Under the pieces are notes generated by a model. It was not told the DNA's origin and made no database searches. It worked only from the letters and a program-made list of their open reading frames with translations. A DNA stretch of 16,519 nucleotides from Polyrhizophydium stewartii (Eukaryota; Chytridiomycota; Chytridiomycetes; Rhizophydiales), in assembly GCA_027604665.1 (NCBI GenBank), contig JADGIZ010000299.1, positions 1 to 16,519 of the forward strand, given 5' to 3'. Each line of letters begins with the position of its first letter. Position 1 is the first letter of the stretch. Below are positions 1,969-14,335 of the stretch, one piece after another. The translations under genes were made by a program, and so were the position numbers.

Positions 1969-4006
<2,038 letters not shown>

Positions 4007-5050: not shown

Positions 5051-7658
5051 GATCTTCTGCGATGCCGCATACGTCGTGAACGCGTTGTCGGCCACAACGG
5101 CGGACGCGCCAGTGGGCGTCATGGTGCCGGGCGTGCCTGGCTTGCCACCTAAGCGCGGCGTGCGCGCGCGGTTGCCGCCCGCAGCCAGTGCGCCAGCGGG
5201 CGACCCGGGCGTCTGGAACCCGGCCATGGGCGATCCAAACTGCGCCATCATCTGCTGCTGCTGCAGCGGCGTCATCTGCGCCAGCTGCGCGCGCTGCGCG
5301 GGCGTCGGCGTCTGCATCTGCCCGGGCGACATGCCCGCGTGCATCATGTGCATGCCCGCCTTGGCCTGCATCTGCATCTGCAGCGCCGCTTCGTTGGGTG
5401 GCAGCTTGATCTTGAGATTGCTCACCGAGCCGGGATCGCCGCCGGGCTTGCTTATCTTGACCGTGAGCGAGCGCTGCTGCTGCTGAAGGAGCTGTTGTTG
5501 CTGCAGCTTGGCCTGCTGCTGCGCTCGCGCGCGCGCAGACTCTTCGGCTCGGGCCTTGGCGGCGGCCTCTTCCGCCTTGGCCTTGCGCGCCATCTCGACC
5601 TTGAACTTGGCCTTGTGCTCGTCCTGCACCACGCCGCAGCACAGTTTCGTCAGCATCCAAGCCGGCAACACGAGCAGCACTAGCATGTTCTGGCACCCAC
5701 GTTGCCGAGGAGCGCAACCCACGCGGGGTTGTCCTGGTTCTCGCCGACCAGATCAAACGCAATCTGCCCGTACACGTTCTGCGCAAACTTGTCCACGCGG
5801 TAGTTCTCCAGCAGCGTTTTGCACAGCTTGAGGTTGCCTCCAAACGCGGCCCAGGCAAGCGGACGCTGCATTTGGCGCATGCAACAGTCAGCCAGCCGGC
5901 CTGCGCATGACAGTCGCCGAGCAGAGCGCACACAAACTTACGCCTTCGTACCACGTGTCCGCCAGCTCAACGTTGGCGCCGAGCTCAATCAGCATGTCGA
6001 CCATCCTCGCGCTGCCGTGGTAGCACGCCGCGTGGATCGGAGCCCACGTGAAGCTCGCATCAAACATGTTGGCCTGCTCCAGGTTGTTGATGGTTGTGGC
6101 GTCGTAGTTCTTGATCAGGCGCTCGAACCGCTTCATGTCGTTCTTTGCGATCGCATCAAACAGATTGTTCTTTTGCTCGGCTGCAAAGGCACCGTCGGAA
6201 CAGTCAGCGCGCAAAAGGCCTCCATCTCAAGCAACCGGACCAAGAACGCGGCCACGCACAAGTCTCGCGCTCGCGCTCGGGCTTGGGCTCAGACTTGCGC
6301 TTGAGCGCCTTGAGCACCGTCGGGTTGGGCAGGTCCGCGGCCGAGCTGTCGGCAAGTTCGATAAAGTACTCTTGCAGTTCGACCGAGTCCTTGTAGATCT
6401 GCGACTCGGGCTTGTTGTACGTCTGGCAGTTCTTGAAGATCAAAAGCACCTCTTTCTTGAACGCATCGAGGTTGCTGTAGCGACTGCCGTCAATCTTTTT
6501 CTGCAGACGAGCAGAGTATGTCGCCGCGGCGAGCGAGCGTCAGCATGCCGAGGCGGCATCGGTCCAGACGCAGGCGTGTGGCCAAACCTTGATGCGATCA
6601 AACGCAATTGGCCGCTCGATGGTGGTATAGTAGTCGGGGAAGGCGTCTTTATCGGGAGGCACCATGAAGTGGTCGGCCAGGACGCGGGTCGACGTCCTGA
6701 AGCGGCAATGAGCAACACCGAACAAGCGTCAGCGAGCAATGCGCGGCACGGCTCGCCCAGATCCAAGTCGCACTCACTCCTTGTCCTTGTACTCGAGCAG
6801 CCGTGTGTACAGACCCCAAAAATGCGCCTTGAGCGTGCCGGGAATGGGCATACCGGGCGTCTTCTTGACCGATGACGGGTCTGCGGGCGTCTGCGACCCT
6901 CCAGCAGGGGTTTGAGCAGCTGCAGCGCTGTCGTTGCCGCGCCTTGCCGGCGTCTGCGCGCCGGCCATGGGCTCGTCCGTGTGTGCCGCTTTCTGCTGGG
7001 ACGACGCACAGCGCCAGCGCCGTGCCGTCAGCACCCTCGCTGGCAGCTCAACCGCAGGCCGCCCGGTCGCTCGACCATGGCAATGTGCGGGCAACTCCGC
7101 ACTCGATCCGCGACATCCAGGTTGAATGCGGACAAACGGCCAAGACACACCTCATTCAGGCTCTTGCCGGTGATGCGCAGCTTCTTGAGCCTTGGCTGCG
7201 ATGCGCTGCCGGCGTCGCCGGCGTCGCCGGCATCCTCCTGCTCGTCGCCCTCGTCCATGGTGTCATCGCCGTCCTCGGCCTGCTCGCCGACGACGGGCGT
7301 CTTGATGTCGCTGTGCGGCCGCTTGACCGGCGCCGGCGTCGCGGGAACTGCAGCGTGCTCAGGGTCAGCGGCGCTAGCCTCCACGCGCCGCGCATGGCCG
7401 CGTGCGCCCGTATGCCGCACCAGCGTCGCCATGGGCTCCTCCCGCAGCGGCCAAGGCTGCTGTCGCCGCCGCTGCCGCCTCGTCCTTGCTTGGGTCGCGC
7501 AGCGAGAGCGACAGCCGCAGGCCCCTGGCGGGCGCGTAGGCAGGCGCACCGGATGCGGCGTCTGCGCCGCCGTGGTCGCCGTGGTGTGCGGGCTGCTGCG
7601 TGGCGTCGGCGGCCGCCTGCGCCGCCGCGGCCTCGTCGGCGCCCGGGTGTCCGGCCAT
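4202..7658 (-). CDS. Bromodomain and ankyrin-repeat protein, RSC4-like chromatin-remodelling subunit
   Basis: Likely nuclear acetyl-lysine reader of an RSC/SWI-SNF type remodeller. Exons in transcript order are 7658-7421, 7347-7151, 6992-6778, 6696-6588, 6500-6260, 6180-5942, 5865-5701 and 5623-4202, giving 941 aa. An Ala/acidic N-terminus leads to one bromodomain (about aa 195-310), with LADHFMVPPDKDAFPDYYTT, RPIAFDRIK and FKNCQTYNKPESQIYKDS; the acetyl-lysine-binding Asn position falls in the TYN block. Three ankyrin-like repeats follow (about aa 334-468: NNLFDAIAKND, WAPIHAACYHGSARMVDMLI, RPLAWAAFGGNLKLCKTLL). A basic Ala/Glu/Gln coil comes next, then a Q/M/P-rich region with 17 Gln, and a conserved-looking beta-rich end (FTFQLRDGVNAVEINVIAS). 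All eight exons join in frame. It shares a 29-bp divergent start region with the TFIIIC gene. The exact complex and orthology to yeast Rsc4 are inference; the start and first intron are the least sure parts. Confidence 0.8.
5000..5050 (-). repeat. Interrupted CAG/CAA tract (17 Gln codons)
   Basis: On the minus strand, 17 consecutive Gln codons of the bromodomain gene (about aa 660-676), with CAA at three places among the CAG codons. The interruptions should make it more stable than the purer tract in the KCH gene. Confidence 0.95.
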
Positions 7659-7687: not shown

Positions 7688-10267
7688 ATGTCGGCTGCCG
7701 GCGACGTGCATGCGGGCGTCGGGACGGACGCCGGCGGGGGTGCCGGCAGCAGCAGCAGCCACGGCGGCGGCGGCCCACATACTGCAGCGGAGAAGCTTCA
7801 CGCAGAGTCGTACCCGCTGCCGGACGCCACCTACTACGCCATCGAGCACCCCGGATATGCCGCAACAGCCGAGAAGCTCATCCTCACTCTCGGCGGGATG
7901 CAGCGGGTGCAGCAGGTGGGCCGGGCCTGTCCGTCGCTCGGAATGGCGCCGATCGTCAGCAGCGCCGGCGCAGCTGCGCTTTGTGCGTCTGTAACCCATG
8001 CGAGCGTGCTGACGCTCTGCTCCTCCAAGGCGTTCGCCCAGGAGCGCGGTTATATCGACCTCAACTTCTGTCCGTCCGACCCTTTCATGCACTCAATTGC
8101 GGGCGATATCCTCCCGACGGCCAACCTGCTGCTGCGGGTCGTGCGCCGCACCAACAAGCGCACGGGCGAAACCACGATCGAGCATCGTGTGGCTGGCGTC
8201 GTCTCCAAGACTTGCCGCTTCCGCGGTGAGCCGGCGCGGCTGACCCATCCTCTGGTAGGACACTGCGCCGTATCACATGCTGACTGGGAGTCCATATGCG
8301 CCGCTGTGCAGCCCTGGCCGACTTTCAGTTTGAGACGGATCCCACAGACCCGATCGTGCAGCTGCGGCATCAAATGCAGGACCTTGATGGTGCGCTGTTT
8401 GGCCATTTGCGAGACACAAGTGTCTGTCGTCCAACTGACTTGATGCTGCCCCTCAGTCGAGGCCTTCCGCAAGCCCATCTTCGACACCAAGACGCAGGGA
8501 ATCTCTGACCAGCTCAATCAGCTTCCGCCGCCGAGCTTCTCGCGCTCCGAGTGGCCGCAAGAGTACAAGTTGCGTTGCGCCAACGGTTGAAACCCTATCT
8601 CTCAGATTCGCGGGCTGACAGGCTCCGCCGCAGGTACACAGAGAACCCCGCCGTGAAGCTCAAGTTGGAGGGCACAGACCCGGCCGGCAGGCCAATTTTC
8701 AGACACGTCAACGAATCGAGGGTCAAGCGCACGCAAGCACCCATATTCGATCCGACCGCGCCGAGCGTGCCCATGCACGCGCCGTCGTGGGTCTCCAAGA
8801 AGAGCGCTCTGGAGCCGACCCTGCGCGAGCTTTTTGAGCAGCGGCCCGTCTGGACGCGCATTGCGCTCATCAACAACATCGAAATCGCGGACTACAGCAC
8901 CGACATGCTCAAGGATGCTCTGCCTATGGTAGCCTACTTCTGCGCCACCGGCGCGTGGCGCAGCACATGGGTGCGGTACGGGTTCGACCCACGCGCGGAC
9001 CGCAGCTCGCGCGTGTTCCAGACGCTAGATCTGCGCGCCGTCAAGCAGGCCCAGTACACTCGCGCCAAGCGTGTCCTGACCAAAAAGGACGCTGCGGCTG
9101 CAACCGCCATCGCCTCTACCCGCGAGCCGGACCCGAGCGAGCGATCAAGGTGAAGTAGCATGGCTCTCTTTGTGCTCTCGCCTGCGTTTGTGGCTTGGAC
9201 GGTGCGTGCTGACTGGCGTGGTGCAGAACGTCGCACATCTTTGACGGCCAGACGTACAATGCGCTGGCGCTCTTTCAGATGTGCGATGTGACCGACCCGG
9301 ACATGCGCAATCTCATCCACTCGGCGCGGTACTGCCGCGCAGAGCCAGACGTGAGCGCCGCACGCCTTGATGGGTGCACAATCTGCTGAGGTGCATGCTG
9401 ACGAGCGGGCTCAAGGTGCGCGACGGCTGGTACATCGAGGGCCACTTGGAGAAGATCCGCATGGCCGTCAAGACCCGCATCAACGCGCTCATTGGGCGCA
9501 AGTTCATTTCGCAGAGGAAACGCGAGCGGCAGCGACGGTTCACCACCAAAATCATGGACGTGGACGGGCCGCTGTCGGGAGACGCATTGGCAACGTCGCG
9601 GGCCGATATGAGCGGCGTCGAGTCGTCGGCAGAAACCCGCGGCCGGCGCTCAAGCGGCAAGGGTAAATCTGCTGCTTCCGCCACCTCCTCTGCCGTTGCT
9701 GCGAGCCGAGCCTCTGAGCTCGCTGCGGCCCTTGGTGCTCCATCGGATATGGATTCGACTGCAGCAGCGCTCGCGCCAGGTGCAAGCTCTGGCGAAGCGA
9801 TGCCCGACTTTCTCGACCAGTTGTGGCACGACATCAAGCACGCGGGCAAGGCCAGCCAAAACATGGGCTTGGGCATTGCGCCGGATGAGATCTTTTTGGA
9901 AGACGACGACGGCGCGGATGACTTTTACAAGATCTACGAGGCCGAGGACGATGACGGCGAAGCCGATCACGCCTACGACACTGCCGACGATGAAGGCGGC
10001 GACGGCGATGGCGGCGATGAAGGCGATGCGGCGCCGACTTCCCGTGTGCGCGCCGCACTTCCATCTTCCCAGAAGCAAGCCGCTGGCGAGGATATGCTTT
10101 CTGAAGACGGCGAGGAGAACATGGAGCAAGAGGAAGGAGACGAGTACGACGAAGACGATTACGGCCAAGATGAGGAGGACGGCAACGGCGACGACGACGA
10201 AGAGTACGCCTACGACGACTACGATGATGAGGAGTATTATGCAGAGGAGCCACCCGAGTTGGAATAG
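7688..10267 (+). CDS. TFC1: TFIIIC subunit 5 (tau95/Tfc1, GTF3C5 homologue)
   Basis: Subunit of RNA polymerase III factor TFIIIC, contacting the A box of tRNA gene promoters. Exons are 7688-7915, 8030-8225, 8312-8389, 8457-8568, 8634-9149, 9227-9350 and 9416-10267, giving 701 aa. The N-terminal dimerisation region (about aa 46-150) has AIEHPGY, LTLGG, YIDLNFCPSDPFMHS and NLLLRVVRRT. The LGG to DPF spacing matches human GTF3C5 and fixes the acceptor at 8029. The central winged-helix-like domain (about aa 264-335) reads LRELFEQRPVWTRIAL, MVAYFCATGAWRSTWVRYGFDPR. Then come FQMCDVTDPDMRNLIHSA and DGWYIEGHLEKIRMAVKTRI. The last 125 residues are extremely rich in Asp and Glu, as in animal and yeast relatives. 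Every intron contains CTGAC. The donor at 8569 (GTTGCG) is the least certain border. Confidence 0.9.
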
Positions 10268-10642: not shown

Positions 10643-12706
10643 ATGTTCAGCCCATTCGGAAGCAAGGAGACCAAGGTCCTGCTGCTGGACCCGCTTCCGC
10701 TCGAGGCAACGAATGCGTTCGACCGCGCCAGCTACCAGGTGCGGCGCACGGCCCCCCGCCTGGCCCCGCGCGCGGCCTGGAGGCGGTCCTGCTCACGCCG
10801 ACCCGGCGCATCTGACTGCAGGTCGACGAGTGCTTTGGCGAGCTGTCCGAGGCCGAGCTCGTCAAGCGCATCGCCGGCTACAACATCGTGTGCCTCAGGT
10901 GCGCCCGGATGCTCGCCAGCCCTCCCCACCCCTCGGCCGCGGCGGCGGCGACGGCGGCGGCGTGGTCTGACGCACGCGACGTTCACATGCTAACCGTGTG
11001 CGGTGAACCTGTCCCACCTGCCTCGGATGGCGCGCGGGCCACCAGCGGCGAGCGTGACAGCGAGTACCTGACCGAGGAGGTGCTGCGCTCGGCGCACCGG
11101 CTGCTAGCCGTTGGCATCTTTGGCCCGCAGTCCAACCAGGTCGACCTCAAGGCCGCGCAGCTGATGGGCGTGAGTTGTTGTTGCTGTTGCTGGCGACACA
11201 CACACACACACACGCGAGACCTGGCCGCCGCAGCTGGGCCGCCCGCCCGCATACGGGTCCGGACGCATGCATGCACTCCCGTGCGGTGCGGCCGGCAGGG
11301 CCTGCCGGGGCCCACCGCGGCGCTGGCCCCTCCCACGGCGCGATCGCTCGCCCATCGCCCATCGCATCGCATCGGCGCGTGCCGAGTTCGGCACGCCATC
11401 GGGGCACCGGCCGCTGACAAATATTCCGGCCGCCGCCTGCCTCTGCCACCACCACCGCCGCCCCCGCTGGCGCCGCCCTCGCCGGGGGCCACTGTCACCA
11501 CCGCTGTAAAGATCCCCGTCTTCACGGCGCCGTACCAGTTCCAGCACAGCGTCGCGGAGCTCACGCTCTCCAACATCATCCTCCTCTCGCGCCAGATCGG
11601 CGACCGCAGCCGCGAGATCCACACGGGCGAGTGGAACAAGGTGTGTGTTTGTGTGTGCTACTCGCGGCTCTGCTGCTGCTGCTGCTCGCGCGGCCATACG
11701 GCCCCAAGCGCGCGCTGATGCCCGACCGATCGCATCCAGACGTCCAACAACTGTGTCGAGGTGCGCGGCAAGACGCTGGGCATCGTCGGATACGGCCACG
11801 CGGGCTCGCAGCTCGGCATCATGGCCGAGGCGCTGTCGCTGCGGGTCATCTTTTACGACGAGGCGAGCATCATGCCCATTGGCCGCGCCGAGCCCGTGGA
11901 CTCGCTCGACCAGCTGCTCGCCCAGTCGGACTATGTGGCCATCAACATCTCGTCGTCGCCCGAGAACGTCAACTTTTTCAACAAGGAGCGGATCGCCAAG
12001 ATGAAGAAGGGCAGCTATCTTGTCAACCCGTCGAGCGATGCGGTGCGTTGCCGGAGGCGTGCCGGGATGGCAGGGTGGTTTGAGTGCGTGGGGTGCTGAC
12101 AGGTGCTGGCGATGCTGCTCAGGTCGACCACCAAGCGCTTGCCGACGCCATCAAGTCGGGCCACATTGCCGGCGCGGCCATTGATGTCTTCCCACAGTCG
12201 GCGGTGAACGGCAAGACGGTCACGACGCCGCTACAGGGCGTGCGCAACGTGATCCTCACTCCCGCCATTGGTGCGTCGCTGTTGCTGGATGTTGCGCAGC
12301 CCCGCGGCGTGAGCTGACCCTTCTCATCGTCTCAACGACGACGACGGCGACGATTGCAGCGCGCGACACGATCGAGACCCGCCGCCGCATCGTGGCCGAA
12401 GTCACCGAGCACATTGTGCGCTTCATCTCCGAGGGCACGACGACGGGCGCGGTCAACTTCCCGAGCGTGGCCGCGTGGCCGCTCAAGCCGGGCATGCGGC
12501 GCATCCTGTGCATGCATCGCAACGTGCGCGGCGTGCTGCGGGAAATCGACTATATTCTTTCCGCGTACAATGTCGGCAAGCAGGTCCTGGACACCAAGGA
12601 CGTGCTTGGATACCTCGTTGCGGACGTGGCGACGGATCAGGTCACGACCGAGATTGTCAGCCAGCTGGCCATGCTGGCCAACACGATCCGCACTCGCATC
12701 GTTTGA
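10643..12706 (+). CDS. Diverged 3-phosphoglycerate dehydrogenase homologue lacking catalytic residues
   Basis: Homologue of Ser3/Ser33/SerA, the NAD-dependent first step of serine synthesis. Exons are 10643-10738, 10822-10898, 11061-11169, 11512-11640, 11740-12042, 12123-12270 and 12360-12706, giving 402 aa (E. coli SerA 410, yeast about 469). Family blocks are SNQVDLKAAQLMG, SVAELTLSNIILLSRQIGDRS, EVRGKTLGIVGYGHAGSQLG (Rossmann GxGxxG, aa 154-159), GHIAGAAIDVF, and an ACT-like end (about aa 330-402: NVRGVLREID, YLVADVATD). The catalytic Arg of NASRG is Ser236 (NPSSDA), the Glu of the TEPA loop is Ser264, and the His of TPHIGGST is Ala286 (TPAIARDT). The substrate loop RSR/RSK is reduced to LSEY and SNTRS is QFQHS. 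No stop or frameshift breaks it, so it looks like an intact pseudoenzyme, perhaps a partner or NAD/serine sensor. An altered substrate is possible. Confidence 0.85.
11196..11213. repeat. (AC)9 microsatellite
   Basis: Nine perfect AC units in the unusually long intron 3 of the dehydrogenase gene, preceded by a short TTG/TGC-rich run after the donor. Confidence 0.95.
11377..11396. repeat. Perfect inverted repeat in intron 3 of the dehydrogenase gene
   Basis: GCGTGCCGA and TCGGCACGC are perfect reverse complements separated by GT. As RNA this would more likely close as an 8-bp stem with a four-base loop. CATCGC-like short repeats lie just upstream (about 11350-11375). Confidence 0.75.
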
Positions 12707-12815: not shown

Positions 12816-14335
12816 ATGGGCCAGAGCGACAAGGAGGCGCTTCTTGGTGCGCGCCTGCGAGGGGGCGCGGGGTGGCGACCCGCAGACGACTCGGCACACG
12901 GCTGACCAACGCCCATCGGCGCTGCGGGCTGCGTGCGCTGCCGGCCCCACCCCGCAGACATGGGCTTCTCGCCCGCCAAGGTGGAGCGTGCGCTGCGCGT
13001 CACCAAGAACGCCGGGCTGCAGGTCGCCATGGACTGGTGCGTGGGCTCGTTGACCCCGGCGGAGGGGCTCTCAGCTCGTGGGGAGACTGTAGCCGCACGA
13101 CTGCTCGGCCGAGCTGGCGGCCCCTGCTGGGCCGCGGCTCACAGGCGCGGGGTGCACCTGTCGACGAGCTTGCGCTGACCCTGGTTGGCCCGCGCTCGGC
13201 GACCCTGCCGACGGCCTCGGCTGGCGGGACCGGCCGACTGGCAGGCTGTTTGCGCACGCGGACGAGCCGGACGACATGCCCGAGCCCGCCGCGGGCGGAT
13301 CTGACGCCGCGGCGGGCGGCGCGGACGACGAGGGCGAGATCTCGCAGGAGCAGGCGACGGCGCAGTCGCTCAAGTGCGACGACTGCGGGCGGCTGTTCCG
13401 CGATTGTGAGTCTCGGCCGATCAGAGGATGAACGCAGCTTGCCACCCCCCAGTCTCGGCCGATCAGAGGCCTGAGCGGGAGATGTGGAGCTCCGGAGACT
13501 GCCGCTGCCACCGCCGCTGCCGTTTCTGGATCAACACGCTTACAAGCTCATCTCATCTTCTTGCACGACCGTGCACAGCGTCGGCTGCTGAGCGCCATGC
13601 GATGCGCACGCAGCACGTCAACTTCTCCGAGTCGACAACGGCCATCAAGCCGCTGACGCCCGAGGAGAAGGCGGAGCGGCTCAAGGAGCTGCAGGCGCGG
13701 CTTGCGGCGCGACGCGAGGAGAAGCGGCAGCTGGAGATCCAGGAGACCAAGGAGCGCGAGAAGGTGCGCCGCCGCACGGGCCAGGAGATCACGGCGGCCA
13801 AGGAGAAGATGGAGGAGGTGGAGCTCAAGAAGGCGTTTGAGGCCAAGAAGCGCGAGAAGGAGGAGGAGCGGCTTGCGCGCGAGCGGGTGCGCGCGCAGCT
13901 CGAGGCCGACAAGCGCGAGCGCCAGCGCAAGGCCGAGGAGAAGAAGATGCTTGCGCAAGGCATCGCGCCGCCGGCTGCCGCTGCTCCGGCTGCGTCGCCG
14001 GCTGCCGCTGCGGCTGGTCCCGCCAAGACATACAACGAAGCCCGCATCCAGGTGCGCAGTCCCGCATGCTTGCTCCAGCGCCTTTCCGCACAGCGCGATG
14101 TTGACCGCATGCGGCTCTTTACTCCCAGATCCGCGCCAACGGCCAATCATTCGTGCACGTCTTCCAGGCAGACGACACGCTCGAAAAGGTGTACGAGTTC
14201 CTGGTCGAGCAGACGCACTCGCGCGAACTCAAGCTGTCGCAGACGTTCCCGCGCAAAGTGCTCGACGGCGCCGACCGCGCCAAGACGCTCAAGGAGCTGA
14301 ACCTGGTGCCCAGCGCCGCGCTGATGGCCCAGTGA
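12816..14335 (+). CDS. UBXN1: UBA-zinc finger-coiled coil-UBX protein, Cdc48/p97 cofactor
   Basis: Predicted adaptor joining ubiquitinated proteins to the Cdc48/p97 ATPase in cytosol or nucleus. Exons are 12816-12846, 12958-13036, 13245-13405, 13579-14051 and 14129-14335, giving 316 aa. The UBA domain (about aa 2-40) has DMGFSPAKVERAL and AMDWLF. A C-x2-C-x12-H-x5-H finger (Cys81, Cys84, His97, His103) straddles the 13405/13579 splice; relatives in fungi and plants carry the same element, followed as here by FSEST..IKPLTPEEK. A long, highly charged coiled coil covers about aa 116-217, then an Ala/Pro linker, then a UBX domain (about aa 245-316) with the p97-contacting FPR loop (aa 288-290) and LVPSAALM at the end. 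All exons join in frame. Introns 2 (208 nt) and 3 (173 nt) are long for the locus. The orthologue name follows domain order and is less certain than the family. Confidence 0.9.
13409..13469. repeat. Direct repeat of 19 bp in UBX intron 3
   Basis: A 19-bp sequence beginning AGTCTCGGCC occurs identically at 13409-13427 and 13451-13469, with 23 bp between. The first copy begins just after the donor GTGAGT. Confidence 0.9.

Follow-up and report, generated by a model that had tools for sequence, protein, structure and literature searches.

A seven-exon gene on the forward strand of the Polyrhizophydium stewartii window (the whole 16,519-bp stretch of DNA analysed), at positions 10643-12706, encodes a 407-aa product of the SerA/Ser33 type. 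Judged by its residues, this protein is very probably not an ordinary 3-phosphoglycerate dehydrogenase (PGDH), ordinary PGDH catalysis having been lost. Comparison with its relatives indicates that the gene is a member of a kept clade and not a lone decaying copy. The reading ranked first, which is given about an even chance, is that it represents a conserved pseudoenzyme of type II PGDH acting as a non-catalytic, ligand-sensing partner of PGDH.

The exons of the gene are as follows.

10643..10738, forward strand: exon 1, with the start codon and beta1 of the substrate domain
10822..10898, forward strand: exon 2
11046..11169, forward strand: exon 3; splicing to acceptor 11046 yields P0001, the deposited protein, and splicing to 11061 a model shorter by 5 aa
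11512..11640, forward strand: exon 4, whose 3' end encodes W140-N141-K142, in which W140 and K142 correspond to E. coli Trp139 and Lys141
11740..12042, forward strand: exon 5, with the Rossmann core and NPSSDA replacing NASRGT
12123..12270, forward strand: exon 6, with PQSA replacing the xEP motif and TPAI replacing TPHI
12360..12706, forward strand: exon 7, which covers the ACT domain and includes the stop codon

Each of the six introns is bordered by GT..AG, and intron 3 terminates in TAAAG. With the exon-3 acceptor at 11046, which adds GERDS, the spliced product has zero mismatches to P0001, the 407-aa NCBI protein of P. stewartii (Chytridiomycota, Rhizophydiales) annotated as 'D-3-phosphoglycerate dehydrogenase 2'; the deposited model therefore restores neither Arg, Glu nor His. 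This bears out the frame, open over seven exons, given in a preliminary description of the locus. The residue positions named there were also right, but their numbers lie 5 below those of P0001 because that model took the shorter exon 3. With its spliced frame open and its ACT domain evolving more slowly than that of the canonical enzyme, the gene does not behave as a pseudogene.

The product belongs to the 2-Hacid_dh/2-Hacid_dh_C proteins, since the 402-aa model scores above cut-off with PF02826 (126.1 bits) and PF00389 (67 bits); its NCBIfam equivalog score of 393.4 is below the cut-off of 404. The layout is that of type II PGDH, with one C-terminal ACT domain carrying serine-ligand residues and no ASB domain. 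The ACT part scores 20 with the Pfam ACT model, below that model's own cut-off of 27, and aligns with the E. coli, Brucella and yeast PGDH chains. An AlphaFold2 model, computed from an alignment of 34 among the 58 clade rows, reached a mean pLDDT of 79.5 and a pTM of 0.68, with lower values in the ACT part (about 63-78 by block, 34 in the final block). Its top PDB matches are yeast Ser33 chains, both serine-bound and serine-free, at whole-chain rmsd values of 6-7 that leave the domain placement uncertain. Type II PGDH is the best PDB match of the protein by fold and among the best by sequence, and the likeness to E. coli SerA and yeast Ser3/Ser33 extends to domain order, GxGxxG, Asp181, Trp139/Lys141 and the serine-ligand residues of the ACT domain. 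Unlike type II PGDH, the clade lacks the Arg/Glu/His triad, its Arg-Ser motif and Gln301 are broken, and Pro348 is fixed as Arg.

The triad of active SerA enzymes, Arg240/Glu269/His292, is wholly absent from the window protein, where the three positions fall in the following motifs.

12025..12042, forward strand: NPSSDA, at the position of catalytic Arg240, which is lost
12192..12203, forward strand: PQSA, with Ser at the catalytic Glu269 position
12258..12269, forward strand: TPAI, with Ala at the catalytic His292 position

These motifs, including TPAIARDT (12258-12370, split by the last intron), are all found where the preliminary description had placed them. Its claim that all three catalytic residues are replaced stands as regards their loss; the substitution of Ser for Arg is less certain, as the P. 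stewartii alignment is one residue short here (NPS-SD against NASRGT) and can equally be read as a deletion.

Across the 58 aligned clade rows Arg is kept in none of the 56 with a letter at the Arg240 position (two have gaps), the residues there being Tyr (27), Phe (15), Ala (7), Cys (4), Ser (1), His (1) and Trp (1). Glu269 is kept in 5 of 55 rows with a letter and His292 in 7 of 56; both persist in five of the 58 (P0005, P0011, P0023, P0035 and P0083), or in six in a looser alignment. None of the three positions is occupied by a single conserved residue. The preliminary description had suggested looking for a clade that shares a Ser/Ser/Ala pattern; the clade itself exists, with Arg lost throughout, but its members differ in the residues at the Glu269 and His292 positions. 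In the accessible part of PMC6303947, Arg is called the most conserved active-site residue, on the grounds that it binds the substrate and orients it. The Arg-Ser phosphate-binding motif of the beta3-alpha3 loop is likewise missing, with Ser61 in 0 of 17 clade rows that have a letter. The old Arg60-Ser61 loop carries an insert, and an Arg of uncertain placement aligns there in 13 of 17 rows, which may leave the loop able to bind an anion. Gln301 is kept in 1 of 22 clade rows, and overall just 44 of 167 canonical-invariant columns are retained. As an enzyme-family homologue without conserved catalytic residues that is itself conserved, the protein qualifies as a pseudoenzyme.

Other parts of the protein are kept, or have become fixed in a new form.

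11788..11805, forward strand: GYGHAG, the retained NAD-binding GxGxxG motif
12386..12388, forward strand: Arg302, present in 57 of 57 clade rows with a letter, where 22 canonical rows have Ala, Ser or Gly
12497..12703, forward strand: ACT domain (residues 339-407), which varies less within the clade than it does in the active-type paralogue
12515..12523, forward strand: His345 to Asn347, including the retained equivalents of the E. coli serine ligands His344 and Asn346
12527..12529, forward strand: Arg349, a clade signature replacing canonical Pro (E. coli Pro348)
12569..12571, forward strand: Asn363, the retained equivalent of the E. coli serine ligand Asn364

Each Gly of GxGxxG is found in 56 or 57 of 57 clade rows and Asp181 in 58 of 58, which extends to the clade what had been noted for the single protein, namely that GxGxxG and the Asp after the Rossmann strand remain. 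At the positions that we take to be the serine ligands of the E. coli enzyme, His344 is present in 51 of 55 rows, Asn346 in 53 of 54 and Asn364 in 50 of 51; the E. coli numbering and ligand assignment derive in part from the alignment and from mutant names in PDB titles. Trp139, a subunit-contact residue in E. coli SerA, and Lys141 are kept in 55 of 55 rows. Lys141 is described as part of the E. coli active site in the text available to us (PMC3986399), and an Arg or Lys contributed by the other subunit is mentioned in the accessible part of PMC6303947. Clade-specific states include Arg for Pro348 (53 of 54 rows), Glu354 (50 of 51), Asp356 (48 of 50) and Asn218 (57 of 58), and the ACT domain holds 6 of the 14 fixed differences between pseudo and canonical forms.

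The clade was delimited in a set of 283 proteins pooled from the best 120 matches of each of three protein searches, and its count of 58 refers to members among the matches listed. In the alignment Arg, Glu and His are all present in 224 of the 283 proteins, which leaves 59: the 58 clade members and P0145. The latter, reading 'SEH' in the looser alignment, was rejected as a member, its gene model skipping the NASRG segment. Members come from Chytridiomycota, Monoblepharomycota and metagenomes; six named ones were checked in the taxonomy, four of them being Chytridiomycota, and the remaining named members we assume to be Chytridiomycota as well. In a 71-row tree of 32 of the 58 clade rows, 32 canonical rows (mostly fungal) and 7 labelled bacterial, including some metagenome proteins, the branch dividing the clade from canonical PGDHs has an SH-aLRT value of 100. 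The clade received 100/100 support in a more careful 44-row tree with 16 clade rows, to which P0083 had been added. Just three groups join at the centre of the tree, and therefore an origin from the fungal canonical gene is not separated from an earlier entry.

Within the clade the tree largely tracks fungal orders. The earliest split among named rows sets off Gonapodya and Hyaloraphidium (Monoblepharomycota), followed by Chytridiomycota, and the metagenome proteins P0242 and P0083 branch deeper than these. P0083, at the base, has Trp at the Arg position and keeps Glu and His, as if Arg went first. Both P0083 and P0242 already carry NVRGV in the ACT domain. No clade member was seen among the best 120 of 8000 scored candidates for six Spizellomycetales genera and for Phlyctochytrium arcticum (Chytridiales in the taxonomy), in all of which the canonical enzyme was found; as the match list comprises the best 120 of 8000, absence from these taxa is likely rather than proven. 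Two Globomyces clade proteins, P0006 and P0027, have by eye a cysteine-rich membrane-type tail, probably a gene-model fusion with a neighbour.

The second, canonical gene that had been proposed as a check was found in the same genome, on contig C135, with Arg, Glu and His in the motifs NASRGTVVD, DVFPVEP and TPHIGGST. A search of the P. stewartii genome with P0001 listed only the window contig and C135. A Pfam search added a gene on C434, which was rejected as a second PGDH, being D-lactate-dehydrogenase-like by eye with NTSR kept. By eye, four early intron sites appear common to the C135 and window genes; the C135 gene has one extra intron in its first part, and the intron pattern differs after the NAD domain. 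Both forms could be paired in 22 lineages, some pairs combining sequences of separate isolates or of closely related species (Boothiomyces, B. salamandrivorans, Chytriomyces).

Over the 22 pairs, identity in the substrate domain was 0.537 for the pseudo form versus 0.725 for the canonical one, and in the NAD domain 0.616 versus 0.718, whereas in the ACT domain the order was reversed (0.711 versus 0.598), ACT identity being greater in the pseudo form for 180 of 210 species pairs. Tree lengths were compared on a single common topology for the 16 pairs complete in every part, which dropped Bd, Blyttiomyces, Gonapodya, Gorgonomyces, Hyaloraphidium and Polychytrium. Pseudo and canonical lengths were 6.19 and 3.33 for the N part (ratio 1.86), 4.32 and 2.73 for NAD (1.58), 6.38 and 2.29 for the C-linker (2.78), and 2.87 and 4.87 for ACT (0.59). 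Relative to the active paralogue, the pseudo form thus evolves 1.6-2.8 times faster in its catalytic parts and more slowly in its ACT domain. The ACT p-distance ratio was 0.72 (column bootstrap 0.57-0.91), or 0.75 after trimming (0.58-0.97), and column-bootstrap distance ratios exceeded 1 for the N, NAD and C-linker parts. The pseudo ACT domain is more strongly constrained than the canonical one. Loose catalytic parts together with a tight ACT domain would not be expected of mere decay or of mere retention of the cleft.

These rates, the 58-member clade and the canonical gene in the same genome uphold, at the level of sequence, the initial proposal of a conserved pseudoenzyme that keeps the NAD fold and ACT end beside an active-type paralogue; binding of NAD and of serine, association with the active paralogue and control of serine synthesis, which it also put forward, are putative functions. 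A role as a partner of PGDH is favoured because the contact residues are kept and the ACT domain is tight, and by analogy with trypanosome prozymes. The pseudo-PGDH would fold like Ser33, bind NAD(H) and form dimers or tetramers together with the active paralogue. In these its ACT domain would act as a sensor of serine or a related amino acid, and its Lys141 could be contributed to the active site of the partner; PGDH activity would then be tuned by the pseudo subunit, as trypanosome prozymes tune their active partners. A more specific proposal, advanced tentatively and with less confidence than the partnership itself, is that a dedicated PGDH prozyme evolved in Chytridiomyceta before Chytridiomycota and Monoblepharomycota split, a dead subunit whose ACT domain, with Pro348 changed to Arg, may read serine or another metabolite and complete or gate the neighbouring canonical active site through Lys141.

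Several points count against such a partnership. No matching constraint is seen in the ACT domain of the canonical enzyme, the structure of a homodimer may be what preserves Trp139 and Lys141, and the change of Pro348 to Arg may shift the domain to another ligand or prevent it from binding serine. Confidence in the ACT part of the AlphaFold2 model is only moderate, and 5-6 of the 58 rows keep Glu and His. An ACT domain alone does not make a PGDH serine-sensitive, as reported for the Aphanothece enzyme in the available text of PMC5471267. A regulatory hand-over, in which the pseudoenzyme takes on sensing and the canonical ACT domain relaxes, was not supported: at equal catalytic identity the canonical ACT domain was no faster in 20 of the 22 carriers (P0121, with an odd insert, and P0138, a truncated model, being left out) than in 31 fungi and relatives with no clade member among the best 120 matches. 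As it is about equally fast in fungi where no pseudoenzyme was seen, there is no sign of the active enzyme adapting to a partner.

Ranked next after the partner model, and rather unlikely, is a stand-alone sensor or scaffold that forms homo-oligomers, binds NAD(H) and, through its ACT domain, an amino acid, and acts on a target other than PGDH, in the manner of ANGUSTIFOLIA. It would account for a hyper-conserved ACT domain beside a canonical one under no matching constraint, for the 6 of 14 fixed differences lying in the pseudo ACT domain, and for invariant Asp181 and near-invariant GxGxxG, but it does not demand the retention of Trp139 and Lys141 in all 55 rows. More doubtful still is a re-specialised enzyme performing other chemistry in the old cleft with Arg302, Asn218 and the residue, aromatic in most rows, that stands where Arg240 was. 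The conservation of Arg302 (57 of 57) and Asn218 (57 of 58), the Arg aligned in the old Arg60-Ser61 loop and the kept NAD motifs suit it, and a substituted active site still works in the related type IIIK SerA, according to the accessible part of PMC6303947. However, no catalytic position holds a single conserved residue, and fast catalytic parts with a slower ACT domain are the reverse of what is expected of an enzyme. A decaying duplicate or gene-model artefact is scarcely credible and largely refuted at the sequence level, for although lineage-specific loss is plausible in the six Spizellomycetales genera and P. arcticum, one loss pattern recurs across many lineages in two phyla, the tree largely follows fungal orders and the product matches the deposited model throughout.

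To our knowledge, dead paralogues that control active partners are known for few biosynthetic pathways, and neither ANGUSTIFOLIA nor CtBP has an ACT domain or descends from PGDH. The putative PGDH partner would be an old, clade-wide candidate for such control at the entry step of serine synthesis. Arabidopsis ANGUSTIFOLIA and CtBP are members of the same dehydrogenase superfamily with non-enzymatic roles, and the accessible text describes ANGUSTIFOLIA as lacking the catalytic residues and CtBP as having Arg, Glu and His in most animals (PMC9907507). The trypanosomatid prozymes (the AdoMetDC prozyme and a dead deoxyhypusine synthase) are, in the parts of the sources available, likewise dead paralogues beside active ones (PMC6221367, PMC5201418, PMC3663545); their folds and pathways are unrelated, and heteromers and activation, putative for the pseudo-PGDH, are reported there. 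Members with the catalytic His replaced also occur in SERA type IIIK and subfamily X4 of the 2HADH family, but type IIIK, as described in the available text, is active through Lys with Arg kept (PMC6303947), and no row of the window clade that has a letter at this position keeps Arg. Searches on PGDH pseudoenzymes, chytrid serine biosynthesis, inactive paralogues, Ser3/Ser33 structures and chytrid pseudoenzymes gave nothing on a pseudo-PGDH family in the titles and abstract openings of the matches listed, those on chytrid pseudoenzymes dealing with other families. As far as this literature shows, a PGDH paralogue that has lost catalysis and controls serine synthesis would, if true, be a first case. 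The split in rates, loose in the catalytic parts and tight in ACT, separates an ACT sensing role from catalysis and makes a direct test with two proteins possible. Several deposited annotations of clade proteins read D-3-phosphoglycerate dehydrogenase, a label that leaves them open to mis-assignment in chytrid metabolic models.

No serine-pathway gene was recognised among the scanned neighbours in the window, which include the following.

697-1968: fungal KCH potassium channel
2616-3695: UbiE/COQ5 methyltransferase
6204-6539: bromodomain protein
8509-9153: TFIIIC subunit Tau95

Immediately downstream, at 12816-14335, lies a gene for a UBA/UBX-domain protein, of which the piece at 13410-14300 gave no match in a Pfam scan. 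P0241 of Batrachochytrium salamandrivorans, a 722-aa gene model, joins a pseudo-PGDH and a UBX protein in one frame, probably because two adjacent genes, arranged as in the window, were wrongly merged. Pieces of the window match its tail (51% over 53 residues and 60% over 70), which suggests a conserved gene order.
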